Assembly: GCA_021772835.1 (NCBI GenBank)
Contig: JAJFLE010000084.1
Coordinates: 1-64,000 of the forward strand
Direction of reading: 5' to 3'
Source of the DNA: Mariprofundus sp.
Lineage (GTDB): Bacteria; Pseudomonadota; Zetaproteobacteria; Mariprofundales; Mariprofundaceae
Length of the DNA: 64,000 nt
Positions 2,557 through 9,925 of this stretch are shown piece by piece (positions within the stretch are counted from its first letter, which is position 1; each line of letters begins with the position of its first letter). The notes below the pieces were generated by a model, which saw only the letters and a list, made by a program, of their open reading frames with translations, was not told the DNA's origin and searched no databases. The position numbers and the translations under genes are program-made.

Positions 2557-2624
2557 AGTGGGCAATCGTGCCGATTCCGGGTCTTCACCTCAAGCTCGGA
2601 CATACTGAATAAACCAGCGCTTCC

Positions 2625-5288
2625 TTAACCGGCACCTGCAGTTGTTTTACCAAGACGCGTGACAACCCCCCGGTATCCATCCACCTCCAGCAGCTCCCCC
2701 TCCTCAATCAAATCGAAGATACCCGGCAGATTCACTACTGCCGGAATACCGAACTCTCTTGCAACGATTGCCCCGTGCGAAAGATAACCGCCTGTCTCCA
2801 TGACCAGCGCACCCGCCTTCAGAAACAACGGGGTCCAGGATGGATCTGTCGAAGGCGAAACGAGAACTTCTCCCTGCAGCAAACGATGACCCTCCACCGG
2901 TGAGTTGAGCAATCTCGCAATACCTTGTGCCTTGCCGCTGCCCACGGCTACGCCGCTGAATGTCTGCTCAGTTGACGCCTTCAGGTCAGCAGCGACATAA
3001 GCAGAACTCCGATTTCCTGCATGCTCAATGACGACCGGATCAACAGGCGCCTCAGCCCAGGCCGCCATCTGCTGTTGTCTGACAGCAATGCGCGGCTTCA
3101 GTCCTGCGCCATCAACCTCTCCGGAGAGAACATCGCAAACCTCCGGCGCCGTGAGATTCCATATGTCATCAGCCTGAATAATCAGGCCTTGCTGCTGCCA
3201 CATCGTGCCGACGGCCAGAATTGTCCTGCATTGCGCCTCCATCAATGCCATCAGTGCGCTGCGAGCCGCCTCCCTGTGATGGGTCTCACGAATACTGCCT
3301 CTGATCAGACTGCGCAGCAGCGGGTACAACCAGAAGGGGGCCTTCTGTTTTAACCGCGCATGCGCTACTTTGGCATTGTGTTGTTGCCGCTGCCTGAGCG
3401 GAGCGATATCGGTATGCATCAACGCTGCGATAGTGTCGAGCAGGTAACCCGGCTCATCACGCCAGCGTGCATGGCGGAAGTAACTCTCATATACAGCCCG
3501 ATGACCGTATTGCTCAAGAAACCCTTCAAATGCTATTCGGAAAGGATTATCCGCGGCCAAATGATGCCGCCAGTTTTGATCACGATTTTTCGTTTCCAAC
3601 CACTGCCGAGCAGCTTTATTGAGCAAGGCTGTATGCGCCAGCTCAACCATTGCATAGGCCTGTCGGGCTGTGACCGTTGGCTCTTCTCCGGTAAGCAAGG
3701 CAGCCACCATGGCATGGCCTTCGCCGGGCAGCAGCTTGTTGATTTTATCCACCAGCATGGAGATGCTGGCACCGCTGGATGCCTGCAGGAAGAAGATCTC
3801 TTGTGAACTGCCAACATAGCGGGCCTGATCAAGTATGCTTTGCAACAGTTCCTGCTCATTTTGAGCAACAGGCTGAAGTCGCCAGCTTTTCGCGGTGGCA
3901 TGCGCCTGCTGCAGCGCTGAATCGGCTCGCTTGCGCATTTTTCCCGAGGCGATCAGGTAACGCATCAGGTATTTTAGCCTGGAAAACTTCTGCCGTATAT
4001 CCGCTTTGGGCACATCAATTTCCGGCTGATGGCCACCCATCAGATCACTGGTCGCCCGTGGTTCCAGCCCGAACACAGCGAAGTATTCCCACTGCATCAG
4101 TGACAGGTTGAGATACAGCCTGCCGTTCAACAAACCGGCGCGCTGCAATCCGGGCTGAAGCGGATAACCGGCCATCTTCAAACCCTGCTCAAGCAGCAGG
4201 TTCACCATTCTACGCGAGTAAAACCAGTCAATAGCTGACAGCGGATAGGGAAGCAATTCGCAGGTGTTGCCGCGCGACCAGATATCGGGCTGTCCCAACA
4301 GGCCGTCATATGTATTCCTCCCCCGACTGGTAACGGGGCGAGCCTGCACCAGCCAGAACTGCCGAGCGTCACGGACCCACTCCAGGTCAAAAAACGGGGC
4401 GCTGAAGTCCATGGCAATCGCAGCATTTCGAAGCAGACGGCCAAGCTTCAGAACCTCTTGATCAGATAACACCCTTTGCCGGGCACGTTCGGTTGATGTG
4501 GTTACACTCTCACAGCCTTCGACGACTGGCATAGTGGTGACCTTTTTTTCGCCAACCTGATAACGATCTATGGTTAGCGAACCGTCCAGTGGACTTTCTG
4601 CCAGTATGATTTCATCACCGCCGGTTAAGCCACCGACCAGTGCCTCGCCCAGCCCCCAGTTGGCGTGGATGACCGTGCGGTCATCACGACCTGAAACAGG
4701 ATCGCATGTAAAAGCGATGCCGCTGGCTTCGGCCGACAACAACGGCATGATCAGCACAGCCATATTCGCAGTTTGATCTTTTATCTTCATACGGTGACGA
4801 TAGACAACCGCCGCCGGACTCCATTGTGACACCCACACCTCAATGATACTGCGAGCGACTGCCTGCGCACCGATCACGTTTAATCTGGAACGGTGAATGC
4901 CGGCAAACGACGCGGTAGCGGAATCCTCGGCCGCAGCTGATGAACGAATTGCCAACGGCTGTGCATGCCAGCTGCTGTCAGTGATCGCCTCGTTGATCGA
5001 GTGCAGCAGACCAGCAGGCAGTGCTACACTTAGCAGACTCTCCTGCAGTTCGAGCAGCAACTCCTGATTGCCATCGTTGAGCATGCACTCTACAGCCTGG
5101 GCAACCGATTCTTTCAAACCTGAATTGCCCAACCACTGCTGCGCGACCCTGACGGGAATGATCATGACTTTGGGAACAGGCAATCCGTAGCGAGCCAGCT
5201 GCGCCAGATTCCAACCTTTGCCGCCAGCCTGTTCCACGCCTGCAGCGATGATTTCATCCCATTGCCTGAGCAACAACGGGCCACTCAC
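2625..5288 (-). CDS. PEP synthase / rifampin phosphotransferase-like enzyme
   Basis: This 887-residue protein combines an N-terminal PPDK-type ATP-grasp domain (about residues 1-320: GGKGWNLAQL, AIRSSAAAEDS and an FDLEWV-type block) with a C-terminal swivelling phospho-His domain. The latter contains GGYLSHGAIVARE, so His838 is the predicted phosphorylated residue. The middle part (about 330-760) begins with GNTCELLPYPL, like the acceptor-binding domain of rifampin phosphotransferases. It lacks the PEP/pyruvate TIM barrel of true PEP synthases. Length and layout match the RPH-like family of about 870 residues. These enzymes move the beta phosphate of ATP via His to a small acceptor; the acceptor here is unknown. 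Its start overlaps the end of the TetR gene by 4 bases (ATGA), so the regulator and enzyme are co-translated. Confidence 0.75.
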   Translation of the reverse strand: MSGPLLLRQWDEIIAAGVEQAGGKGWNLAQLARYGLPVPKVMIIPVRVAQQWLGNSGLKESVAQAVECMLNDGNQELLLELQESLLSVALPAGLLHSINEAITDSSWHAQPLAIRSSAAAEDSATASFAGIHRSRLNVIGAQAVARSIIEVWVSQWSPAAVVYRHRMKIKDQTANMAVLIMPLLSAEASGIAFTCDPVSGRDDRTVIHANWGLGEALVGGLTGGDEIILAESPLDGSLTIDRYQVGEKKVTTMPVVEGCESVTTSTERARQRVLSDQEVLKLGRLLRNAAIAMDFSAPFFDLEWVRDARQFWLVQARPVTSRGRNTYDGLLGQPDIWSRGNTCELLPYPLSAIDWFYSRRMVNLLLEQGLKMAGYPLQPGLQRAGLLNGRLYLNLSLMQWEYFAVFGLEPRATSDLMGGHQPEIDVPKADIRQKFSRLKYLMRYLIASGKMRKRADSALQQAHATAKSWRLQPVAQNEQELLQSILDQARYVGSSQEIFFLQASSGASISMLVDKINKLLPGEGHAMVAALLTGEEPTVTARQAYAMVELAHTALLNKAARQWLETKNRDQNWRHHLAADNPFRIAFEGFLEQYGHRAVYESYFRHARWRDEPGYLLDTIAALMHTDIAPLRQRQQHNAKVAHARLKQKAPFWLYPLLRSLIRGSIRETHHREAARSALMALMEAQCRTILAVGTMWQQQGLIIQADDIWNLTAPEVCDVLSGEVDGAGLKPRIAVRQQQMAAWAEAPVDPVVIEHAGNRSSAYVAADLKASTEQTFSGVAVGSGKAQGIARLLNSPVEGHRLLQGEVLVSPSTDPSWTPLFLKAGALVMETGGYLSHGAIVAREFGIPAVVNLPGIFDLIEEGELLEVDGYRGVVTRLGKTTAGAG

Positions 5289-5887
5289 CGGCTGGCTCCG
5301 TAACCATTGAGAAACAGGTCAAAAACAGTAGAGAACTCATCGTTCAATGCAGTGTCGTCGTTATTGATCCAGCGTATGAGTGCGCCAAAGTAGAGAAATG
5401 AGAAGTAGTAGACAGCGCTTTCCAGTGGCAGGTCGAGACGAAACTCGCCACGTTCAATCCCTCGCCTGATCAGCTCCGTAAAGATTTTATCGATACCGCT
5501 GCGCTGCTGTGATCCTGAATTTGAGGCCGAATTCATTCGAAAATGCAGATAGTGCGGCATGTATTGCCGGCGTTTTTCCGACCAGTCGGCACTTAATGCA
5601 AGAAAGTGCTTCATACGCTGTGCGGACTCTGGAATCTGTGCAAGGGACTCCATCAGTTGAGGTTTTTGCTGCTTAAGCTCATTGTGAAAGTAGTGCTGCA
5701 GCAAGGCTTCCTTGACCGGAAAATATTTATACAGCGTGCCTTTGGCAACATCAGCTTCCGTTGCAATGGCTTCCATGGTCACGTTTCCAAACCCATATTG
5801 CTCAAACAGTAACCAGGCAATTTCAGCAATCTGGTCTACCGTGTCTCTGCGTTTACGCTCCCTACGCCCCATATCTGCGCTCACCAT
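5285..5887 (-). CDS. TetR-family transcriptional regulator
   Basis: The N-terminal helix-turn-helix is clear: AWLLFEQYGFGNVTMEAIA followed by DVAKGTLYKYF. A variable C-terminal ligand domain follows. I place the start at the ATG at 5887 (MVSADMGRRERKRR), because GGAGGG lies 4 bases upstream. The track start at 5959 would run through the promoter. It is the first gene of an operon with the PEP-synthase-like enzyme. An inverted repeat over its -10 element suggests it represses its own operon. The ligand is unknown; by analogy with other TetR-controlled modifying enzymes, it could be the substrate of the downstream enzyme. Confidence 0.85.
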   Translation of the reverse strand: MVSADMGRRERKRRDTVDQIAEIAWLLFEQYGFGNVTMEAIATEADVAKGTLYKYFPVKEALLQHYFHNELKQQKPQLMESLAQIPESAQRMKHFLALSADWSEKRRQYMPHYLHFRMNSASNSGSQQRSGIDKIFTELIRRGIERGEFRLDLPLESAVYYFSFLYFGALIRWINNDDTALNDEFSTVFDLFLNGYGASR

Positions 5888-5910
5888 GTCACCCTCCGCC
5901 ATTAACTGAA

Positions 5911-5946
5911 CGTCGTATAATATTGAACGACGGCTACATATGTCAA
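5911..5946 (-). promoter_or_regulatory. promoter and candidate TetR operator
   Basis: On the minus strand, TTGACA (5946-5941) and TATTAT (5922-5917) are 18 bases apart, a strong sigma-70 promoter for the TetR operon. The inverted repeat CGTCGT-N10-ACGACG (5911-5932) covers the -10 region, a typical position for an autorepressing TetR operator. The promoter is read directly from the sequence; the operator assignment is inference. Confidence 0.7.
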
Positions 5947-6086
5947 GCAGGTGCATCAAATCAGAAAATCGTCAATCGTCTGTGGCACACTGCAGGCAGC
6001 ACGGGTTTCACAACATACCACTAACGGCTTTCCTGTTGCAGACGAAAATCTGTATAAACAGAATCCATGCCGTTACCATTGCTCCC

Positions 6087-7132: not shown

Positions 7133-9925
7133 ATGACTGTGGCCAACGACAAACAATCGCAAGAAACATTCGATTATAAATCCAGCGTTTTCCTGCCGAA
7201 AACCGACTTTCCGATGCGTGGTGGGCTACCGCAGAGTGAGCCGAAACGGCTGGCAAAGTGGGAAGATGAAGATCTCCATGGGCAGATTCGTGAAGCGCGC
7301 AAGGGTGCCCCGAAATTCATCCTGCATGATGGACCGCCTTACGCCAACGGCAGCATCCACATCGGCCATGCCCTGAATAAAGTTCTCAAAGATATCGTGA
7401 TTCGTTCACGCACCATGCTTGGATTCGATGCGCCTTATGTGCCGGGCTGGGATTGCCATGGCCTGCCGATTGAGCTGAAGGTGGAAGAGAAGTTCAAAAA
7501 GAAGAAGCGCAAGAAAGAAGACATCAGCGATTCTGAATTTCGTAGCGAGTGCCGCGAATATGCCAAAGGGCAGATTGATGTACAGCGCGAAGAATTCAAA
7601 CGCCTGGGCATCACGGGTGACTGGGACAACCCATATGTCACCATGGACTATAAGTTCGAAGCCAATACCGTACGTGAAATCGGCCGTTTCCTTGCGAATG
7701 GCGGCCTGTATAAGGGTGCAAAACCTGTGCACTGGTGCGTATCCTGTGCCACAGCTCTGGCTGAAGCAGAAGTGGAATATGAGGACCACACCTCGCACTC
7801 CATCTATGTAAAGTTTACCGCAGGCGAAGACCTCACGGATGTCGCTGCTGAGTTGACCGGTAATGTTTCTATCGTCATCTGGACCACGACACCCTGGACC
7901 ATCCCTGCCAACCTCGCTGTGTCTGTTGGCCCGTCCATCGAATACTCAGCGGTTAAAATCACCGATACAGGTGACAATGCCAACCTCGAAGTTGGAGAAA
8001 TCCTGATCCTGGCTGAAGAACTTCGCGACGGTGTCATGCAGGCCATTGGCGCCAACGGTGAAGTGATCGCCCGCTTTACCGGCGACAAGCTGGATAAGCG
8101 TAAGTTCCGCCATCCGTATCTGGATCAGGATGCTCCGATTCTGGTTGGTGCTCATGTAACACTGGAAGCGGGAACCGGATCGGTACATACCGCACCGGGC
8201 CATGGCCAGGAAGATTACGAAATCGGCATGAAATACGGTCTGGCCGTTTTTAACCCGGTTGGCAATACCGGCGTGTTCGATGAAGCAACACCAGTAGTCG
8301 CTGGCCGCCATGTGTATCAGGCCAATGCCATGATGGTCGATCACCTGCGCGACTGCGGTGCCCTGCTGGAAACCAGCCAGATCAAACATTCCTACCCGCA
8401 CTGCTGGCGCTGCCATAAACCACTTATTTTCCGTGCCACGCCGCAATGGTTCATCTCCATGGAGAACAACGACCTGCGCAACAAGGCTCTGGCTGAAATC
8501 AAGAAAACCAAATGGACACCGGAATGGGGTGAAAACCGTATCCGTGCCATGGTGGAGCAGCGTCCTGACTGGTGTGTATCACGTCAGCGCAACTGGGGCG
8601 TGCCGATCACGGCCATTCGTTGCGAATGCGGCTCACACAAAGTCACTACGCCTGACGTTGTTGAAGCCATAGCCAAACAGGTTGAAGTCGCAGGCGCCGA
8701 TGTCTGGTTTGCCAAGGATGTAACAGCATTCTTGCCTGCAGATGCCACCTGCCCTGATTGCGGCGGCACTGATTTCACCAAAGAGACCGACATCCTCGAT
8801 GTCTGGTTCGATTCCGGCAGCACGCATGCCTGTGTACTTGAGCATCGGAACGACCTGCAAAGCCCTGCTGATCTCTATCTGGAAGGCTCTGACCAGCATC
8901 GTGGCTGGTTCCAGTCCTCGCTGCTGGAGAGTGTAGGCACGCGCGGTGTTGCACCGTTCAAAGGTGTGCTCACGCATGGTTTTGTGGTGGATAAAAATGG
9001 TAATAAAATGTCCAAATCCAAGGGCAATGTGATTGCACCGCAGAAAATCATTGAGCAACTGGGCTCCGACATTCTGCGCCTGTGGATTGCCTCAGCCGAC
9101 TATTCAGCTGATATCCGCATCTCCGATGAAATCCTTAAACAACTGGCTGAAGCCTATCGCCGTATCCGTAATACCATCCGTTTCCTGCTCGGTAATCTCG
9201 ATGGTTTTGATCCGGTTCGTGATGCTGTGCCGCTTGCCGAACGAACACCACTCGATCAGTGGGCCAGCCATCGCCTGTCACAGGTGGAACATGTCGTGCA
9301 TAATGCTTATGAACACTATCAGTTCCATCGCATCCATCAGGAAGTGCATAACTTCTGCTCGGTTGATCTGGGCGGATTCTATCTGGATATCATCAAGGAT
9401 CGCCTCTACTGCGATGCCTTTGACTCCAAGCGTCGCGCTTCTGCACGTGCTACCTTATACGACCTGTCCGACACACTGATCAGACTGATTGCGCCGATTG
9501 TGCCATTCACGGCCGATGAAGCATGGGACTACCTGCCGGGTTCCGATGAACGAAGCATCCATTTGCAGAGCCTCCATCCGGCTGCCGATATCAAGGTGGA
9601 TGAAAAAGCATGGGAAGCCTTCTTTACCGTGCGCGAACAGGTCAATACGGCCATGGATCTGGCCAAGAAGGATAAGGTGGTCGGCTCGTCCATTGCTGCG
9701 ACAGTCACGGTGCCAGGTCTGGATCATGCATTTGCCGAATCACTGGGTGAAAGCTGGGAGCAGCTGTTTATTGTTGCCAAAGTTGAAGCTGGCGACAACA
9801 TCACCATTACGGCGGCAGACGGTATCAAATGCCCGCGTTGCTGGAATGTTTCCAAACCTGCAGAACCGGCGCATGCACTGCACAATGCACTGTGCCCGCG
9901 CTGCTTTGAGGTTGTCGCAGGTTAA
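7133..9925 (+). CDS. ileS: isoleucyl-tRNA synthetase
   Basis: This class I aminoacyl-tRNA synthetase of 930 residues has normal bacterial length. The HIGH signature (SIHIGHALNK) is near residue 66 and KMSKS (GNKMSKSKGNV) near 625. The CP1 editing domain is present (WTTTPWT and GTGSVHTAPGHGQEDY). A C-terminal zinc finger, CPRCW...CPRC, marks the bacterial type that charges tRNA-Ile with zinc bound near the C-terminus. The start ATG follows CTGGGG. It is probably transcribed with or after ribF and ends at a strong terminator. Confidence 0.97.
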   Translation: MTVANDKQSQETFDYKSSVFLPKTDFPMRGGLPQSEPKRLAKWEDEDLHGQIREARKGAPKFILHDGPPYANGSIHIGHALNKVLKDIVIRSRTMLGFDAPYVPGWDCHGLPIELKVEEKFKKKKRKKEDISDSEFRSECREYAKGQIDVQREEFKRLGITGDWDNPYVTMDYKFEANTVREIGRFLANGGLYKGAKPVHWCVSCATALAEAEVEYEDHTSHSIYVKFTAGEDLTDVAAELTGNVSIVIWTTTPWTIPANLAVSVGPSIEYSAVKITDTGDNANLEVGEILILAEELRDGVMQAIGANGEVIARFTGDKLDKRKFRHPYLDQDAPILVGAHVTLEAGTGSVHTAPGHGQEDYEIGMKYGLAVFNPVGNTGVFDEATPVVAGRHVYQANAMMVDHLRDCGALLETSQIKHSYPHCWRCHKPLIFRATPQWFISMENNDLRNKALAEIKKTKWTPEWGENRIRAMVEQRPDWCVSRQRNWGVPITAIRCECGSHKVTTPDVVEAIAKQVEVAGADVWFAKDVTAFLPADATCPDCGGTDFTKETDILDVWFDSGSTHACVLEHRNDLQSPADLYLEGSDQHRGWFQSSLLESVGTRGVAPFKGVLTHGFVVDKNGNKMSKSKGNVIAPQKIIEQLGSDILRLWIASADYSADIRISDEILKQLAEAYRRIRNTIRFLLGNLDGFDPVRDAVPLAERTPLDQWASHRLSQVEHVVHNAYEHYQFHRIHQEVHNFCSVDLGGFYLDIIKDRLYCDAFDSKRRASARATLYDLSDTLIRLIAPIVPFTADEAWDYLPGSDERSIHLQSLHPAADIKVDEKAWEAFFTVREQVNTAMDLAKKDKVVGSSIAATVTVPGLDHAFAESLGESWEQLFIVAKVEAGDNITITAADGIKCPRCWNVSKPAEPAHALHNALCPRCFEVVAG

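Follow-up and report, generated by a model that had tools for sequence, protein, structure and literature searches.

A gene for a TetR-family repressor that runs directly into a gene for an enzyme laid out like rifampin phosphotransferase (Rph) raises two questions: what the enzyme may phosphorylate, and whether the pair is an antibiotic resistance determinant. Both were addressed for such a pair in a 64,000-nucleotide stretch of Mariprofundus sp. contig JAJFLE010000084.1 (hereafter, the window). On balance, we read the locus as a self-contained, horizontally acquired, ligand-induced cassette of two genes, repressor and small-molecule dikinase, that most likely serves detoxification, and rifampicin is probably not the substrate.

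A coupled repressor and dikinase gene pair

The dikinase gene (positions 2625–5288, minus strand) is an open reading frame encoding 887 amino acids from a GTG start, and the TetR-family gene (5285–5887, minus strand) encodes 200 amino acids from the ATG at 5887. Direct reading of the minus-strand leader made this ATG the best-supported start, with the SD sequence GGAGGG in front of it (5897–5892). The TGA of the TetR gene and the GTG of the enzyme gene share 4 bp (GTGA, 5285–5288). As this overlap is exact in 22 loci, window included, it bears out the translational coupling proposed in an earlier note on this DNA.

Pfam recognized a TetR_N DNA-binding domain in the repressor (E = 1.9e-14). In the enzyme it recognized an N-terminal ATP-grasp domain (PPDK_N, residues 19–325, E = 1.4e-62) and a C-terminal phospho-His swivel domain (PEP-utilizers, residues 805–874, E = 1.6e-22), with nothing known between them, where a middle substrate-binding region is predicted at about 330–770. 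This is the domain order of Rph. His838, named earlier as the phospho-His, aligns with the catalytic His825 of Rph-Lm. An AlphaFold2 model of the enzyme (pLDDT 91.8) found Rph-Lm as its best PDB match by Foldseek, at full length (E = 2.6e-41), so that the Rph-like layout and fold first read from the letters are upheld by both domains and structure; TM-scores near 0.5 and a high whole-chain rmsd fit domain motion.

A conserved putative operator at a single promoter

A sigma-70-type promoter with 11 of 12 consensus bases lies upstream of the TetR gene (5917–5946, minus strand; -35 TTGACA at 5946–5941, 18-bp spacer, -10 TATTAT at 5922–5917). Its -10 element sits inside a 24-bp palindrome (5910–5933; CCGTCGTTCAATATTATACGACGT as read on the minus strand), and the putative TetR target DNA carrying this palindrome is ACGTCGTATAATATTGAACGACGG. 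The core CGTCGT-N10-ACGACG (5911–5932), for which 0.02 chance occurrences per 64 kb are expected even when a mismatch is tolerated, is unique in the window and, when the fourth base is set to W, also in the 2.55-Mb genome. Its centre, AATATT, is itself symmetric, and 9 of the 11 pairs of the 22-mer match. The chance of perfect 6-bp arms around a 10-bp spacer within the 140-bp promoter region is p ~0.03; above this within-promoter figure, we regard conservation in relatives, in 22 loci, as the decisive evidence for the predicted operator.

The operator consensus ACGWCGTWYAATWTTRWACGWCGT was scanned over 685 kb of carrier loci at a threshold of at least 19 of 24 matches, which returned 23 positions from 22 loci, every one of them at the TetR-operon promoter. 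Because the consensus had been built from these same sites, a leave-one-out matrix was used, by which the operator ranked first in each of the 22 loci; in the window its score was 28.1 bits, and the runner-up among 63,977 positions reached 10.7. When 14 whole carrier genomes were searched for the 24-bp pattern, three mismatches being the most tolerated, 10 gave a match, one site each and always at this promoter; the remaining four, in which the sites are more degenerate, gave none. Clostridial and Desulfosarcina members have an altered palindrome of the same shape in the same place (e.g. ACTTTGTATATAAAGATACAAAGT in L067). In Acidithiobacillus ferrianus the operator precedes a CN_hydrolase gene (L056:6334–7311), which in turn precedes tetR. 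Many operators show a second half-site, shifted by 17 bp, which was dropped, since matches to one half-site score well by construction.

Because the operator occurs at one place only in each matching genome, overlapping the repressor's own promoter, its pattern points to a dedicated autorepressor that would control its own operon only, in keeping with the autoregulated TetR operon previously predicted from the palindrome over the -10. Operons for drug modification or efflux under TetR control likewise have a local autorepressor and a palindromic operator over their own promoter; here, in contrast, a dikinase is the controlled enzyme, and repressor and enzyme form one bicistron rather than a divergent pair.

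Distribution and conservation of the pair

An orthologue of the enzyme is absent from all 22 same-genus genomes examined. Distant orthologues, 33–49% identical over the whole length, were found in one further genome among the 399 sampled from the phylum, in 11 of 300 in one order and in several in one class. Named carriers are Zoogloea, Acidithiobacillus, Herbaspirillum, Noviherbaspirillum, Nitrosospira, Ralstonia, Dechloromonas, Azospira, Oryzomicrobium and Lysobacter, as well as Clostridium, Desulfosarcina, Syntrophomonas, Desulfosporosinus, Pelotomaculum and a Methanoperedens MAG. A single-protein query against genome contigs and viral contigs returned no relative, whereas an alignment-based scan did, and no phage record covered 80% of the enzyme.

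Of 40 loci (window included), 34 have a TetR of the same family upstream in the same orientation. Three of the six loci without it (L059, L075 and L076) stop so near the gene that no call can be made, which leaves 37 informative loci, from beta- and gamma-proteobacteria, Clostridia and the Methanoperedens MAG; the TetR gene is directly upstream in 34 of these and absent despite room in L058, L070 and L077. Distances among the repressors and among the enzymes are correlated (r = 0.76, Mantel p = 0.0005). No third gene recurs near the pair among the loci examined. The pair is an old module that travels between bacteria as one unit. In a Syntrophomonas MAG (L072:3602–10625), two pairs adjoin in divergent orientation, each dikinase with a separate TetR.

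Insertion site and neighbouring genes

In three same-genus genomes without the module (G001, G008 and G012), ydjM and ribF are divergent neighbours 84–96 bp apart. Homology of the window to these genomes ends at about 2572 and resumes at 6074–6086; the adjacency and this break together place the cassette (2573–6073) as an insertion between ydjM and ribF. Horizontal acquisition is the best reading of the cassette. Its G+C content gives no separate sign of transfer (54.5%, against 53.6% for ribF and 53.3% for ileS).

The earlier note had supposed that the membrane hydrolase downstream might belong to the operon. This gene, ydjM, lies 59 bp downstream of the enzyme gene, and its place beside ribF in genomes without the module refutes that membership and marks it as an older resident. 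The sequence between the enzyme gene and ydjM showed no terminator-like site, so read-through from the dikinase gene into ydjM is possible.

Elsewhere, single neighbours vary. A MatE exporter gene lies downstream of the dikinase gene in L072 and L073, a nitroreductase gene in L066, and a B12-binding radical-SAM gene directly downstream in two distant loci (L065:4464–5909 and L068:10689–12050), of which one is from a Methanoperedens MAG and one from a Bacillota MAG. A polysaccharide pyruvyl transferase gene is directly upstream in L058. In Desulfosporosinus an AAT-family gene (L074:6848–7936) stands between TetR and dikinase; with the CN_hydrolase gene of Acidithiobacillus it places amide-bond enzymes inside the operon, a possible hint of an amide-containing substrate. 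At 828–1223 of the window there is a small membrane protein with a partial match to the DUF2391/TIGR02587 model, which may be a short version of that family.

Relationship of the enzyme to known dikinases

In a tree of 104 proteins of Rph layout, the enzyme fell in a 41-row clade (support 99) apart from Rph and PigC. A second tree, of the ATP-grasp and His domains and with PEP synthases included, separated the TetR-associated clade (100/99), the PEP synthases (100/100) and the Rphs (100/100). Such a phylogeny had been proposed as a check on the first reading of this DNA, and placement within the PEP synthases was rejected; AU tests gave p = 5e-31 for the window's enzyme grouped with PEP synthases and p = 2e-75 for its grouping with the three Rphs. 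These figures were obtained by moving that enzyme alone and forcing it out of its own clade, so that branch support speaks more directly to the question.

The enzyme scored far below every NCBIfam cut-off: 274 bits vs 999 for Rph (NF041857), 288 vs 1300 for PigC (NF052631) and 248 vs 739.75 for PEP synthase (TIGR01418). Its RedH score was 269 bits. As positive controls, genuine Rphs (L140 and L141) scored 1504 and 1448 bits and genuine PigCs 1415 and 1565. The middle domain is 41% identical to the core of its own clade, 13% to Rph and 16% to PigC, Rph and PigC themselves also sharing 16%.

The catalytic residues of Rph are kept (K24, R115, S134, E303, R317, T540, R672, E673, R676 and H838), among them the dikinase set of ATP-grasp Lys/Arg (K24, R115), block 9 Arg-Glu-x-x-Lys/Arg (R672, E673, R676) and phospho-His (H838). 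In Rph, Gln336, Gln337 and Tyr351 contact rifamycin or phosphate, and Stogios et al. reported the phosphate-contacting Gln as retained in candidate clades A–C (PMC4844700). The enzyme has Cys343, Glu344 and Ser358 at these three positions, and its acid at 344 is common to PigC at the position of Rph Gln337. Judged by its sequence, the enzyme would work like rifampin phosphotransferase yet is very probably not one.

Proposed mechanism and function

By analogy with these relatives, the enzyme is probably ATP-driven and phosphorylates a small molecule. In Rph and its relatives the swivel His is phosphorylated from ATP and carries the phosphate more than 40 Å to the acceptor (PMC4844700); as the relay residues are kept, an identical relay is the most economical reading here. 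In the proposed cycle, a TetR dimer on the 24-bp operator would block the -10 of the sole promoter under its control. A small molecule, imported or made in the cell, would bind TetR and free the promoter, and the bicistronic message would give repressor and dikinase by translational coupling. The β-phosphate of ATP would then pass to His838 in the ATP-grasp site, yielding AMP and Pi, and the swivel domain would swing to the middle domain, where a hydroxyl of the small molecule would be phosphorylated with Arg672, Glu673 and Arg676. Phosphorylation would reduce the ligand, and the operon would shut again. That the TetR ligand may also be the substrate had been suggested earlier, and the single-site regulon strengthens this suggestion.

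Since YvkC phosphorylates flavonoids and HpeHI phenolics, our best guess for the acceptor is a planar hydroxylated aromatic, as for YvkC. YvkC of B. subtilis, a structural homologue of Rph, is a flavonoid phosphate synthetase (PMC13099321; PMC11124408). It is a single-chain, Rph-homologous dikinase acting on hydroxylated aromatics and is a candidate relative of the enzyme here. In Bacillus subtilis, yvkC presumably adjoins a TetR gene, yvkB.

The purpose that appears most likely is detoxification, with an aromatic or some other hydroxylated compound as its target. It is preferred to catabolism and biosynthesis on the strength of single-site local repression, the lack of pathway genes, the patchy distribution and the occasional MatE exporter, and the nitroreductase of L066 is a further hint; weighing against it, the exporter and the nitroreductase each occur in only one or two loci, and the B12-radical-SAM neighbour of two loci fits biosynthesis or lipid metabolism better.

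It is rather unlikely that the enzyme instead opens the catabolism or scavenging of a phenolic, in the manner of HpeHI or phenylphosphate synthase, with TetR sensing that nutrient. Several carrier genera are aromatic-degrading or anaerobic, which counts for this reading. The fold is related, the HpeI structure 9goj being among the Foldseek matches, and the two-component dikinases HpeHI, PpsAB and CreHI perform the same phospho-relay chemistry on phenols, HpeHI phosphorylating phenolics (PMC12167813). These systems, however, have two chains and a catabolic-pathway setting, whereas the enzyme here is one chain; no catabolic gene recurs beside the pair, and an operator confined to the pair in the genomes scanned implies that there is no co-regulated pathway.

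More doubtful still is a role as ligase or biosynthetic dikinase, in which a metabolite would be activated for condensation as by the prodigiosin ligases PigC and RedH. These share the three-part architecture and, in PigC, the acid at 344; their scores equal that of Rph, and the amide-bond, B12-radical-SAM and pyruvyl transferase genes of single loci would suit such a role. Against this stand the separate clades, the low middle-domain identity and the gap to true PigCs, which belong to prodigiosin gene clusters: no conserved biosynthetic neighbour appears in more than three loci, and no pigment gene cluster was found among the neighbours examined.

A true rifamycin phosphotransferase, and thus an antibiotic resistance gene, is very improbable. 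Rph-Lm and RphT of B. subtilis do share with the enzyme the ATP-grasp domain, large middle substrate domain and C-terminal swivel domain, together with the catalytic Lys, Arg, Thr/Ser, Arg-Glu and His, and Rph-Lm is the best structural match; but the enzyme is TetR-coupled, lies in a separate clade far below the Rph cut-off, lacks the glutamines of the drug and phosphate site and has a divergent middle domain, and membership in the rifamycin phosphotransferases is not supported. A PEP synthase for gluconeogenesis under a TetR is scarcely credible: it would be the automatic annotation, PRK06241 models being the best NCBIfam matches, and PpsA has homologous ATP-grasp and phospho-His domains, but the His domain here is C-terminal rather than central, the PEP-utilizers C (pyruvate) domain is absent, and score and clade both differ.

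Novelty and a possible wider family

No description of the TetR–dikinase pair was found in the open-access literature searched. Small-molecule dikinases and TetR repressors are known as kinds; the clade, the fixed pairing and the operator appear undescribed. The superfamily of Rph-like dikinases consists mostly of proteins that are labelled PEP synthase and lack a known substrate (PMC4844700). The present assignment sets right what would likely be a wrong label, be it PEP synthase or rifampicin resistance gene, and defines a compact TetR module with its operator. As the clade has its own sensor and one sharply defined operator, a simple reporter could find the ligand and, through it, the substrate of the whole clade.

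More tentatively, the locus may represent a widespread undescribed family of mobile, ligand-inducible dikinases, carried as a resistance-like TetR cassette with its own 24-bp operator and directed at a natural toxin or signal outside the range of known dikinases. TetR–dikinase coupling is seen in a second branch of the superfamily as well, that of Nonomuraea and its relatives. A TetR-like gene precedes the enzyme in ten loci of other Rph-like dikinase branches, from Nonomuraea, Streptosporangium and others (L082, L083, L086, L090, L091, L098, L103, L112, L120 and L123); the overlap there is mostly 4 bp, and most enzyme starts lie near 7950. Either the pairing has more than one origin or it is ancient. 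One of these loci (L098:2355–7007) holds a 1550-amino acid open reading frame, apparently of two dikinase-like halves, with a TetR in front.
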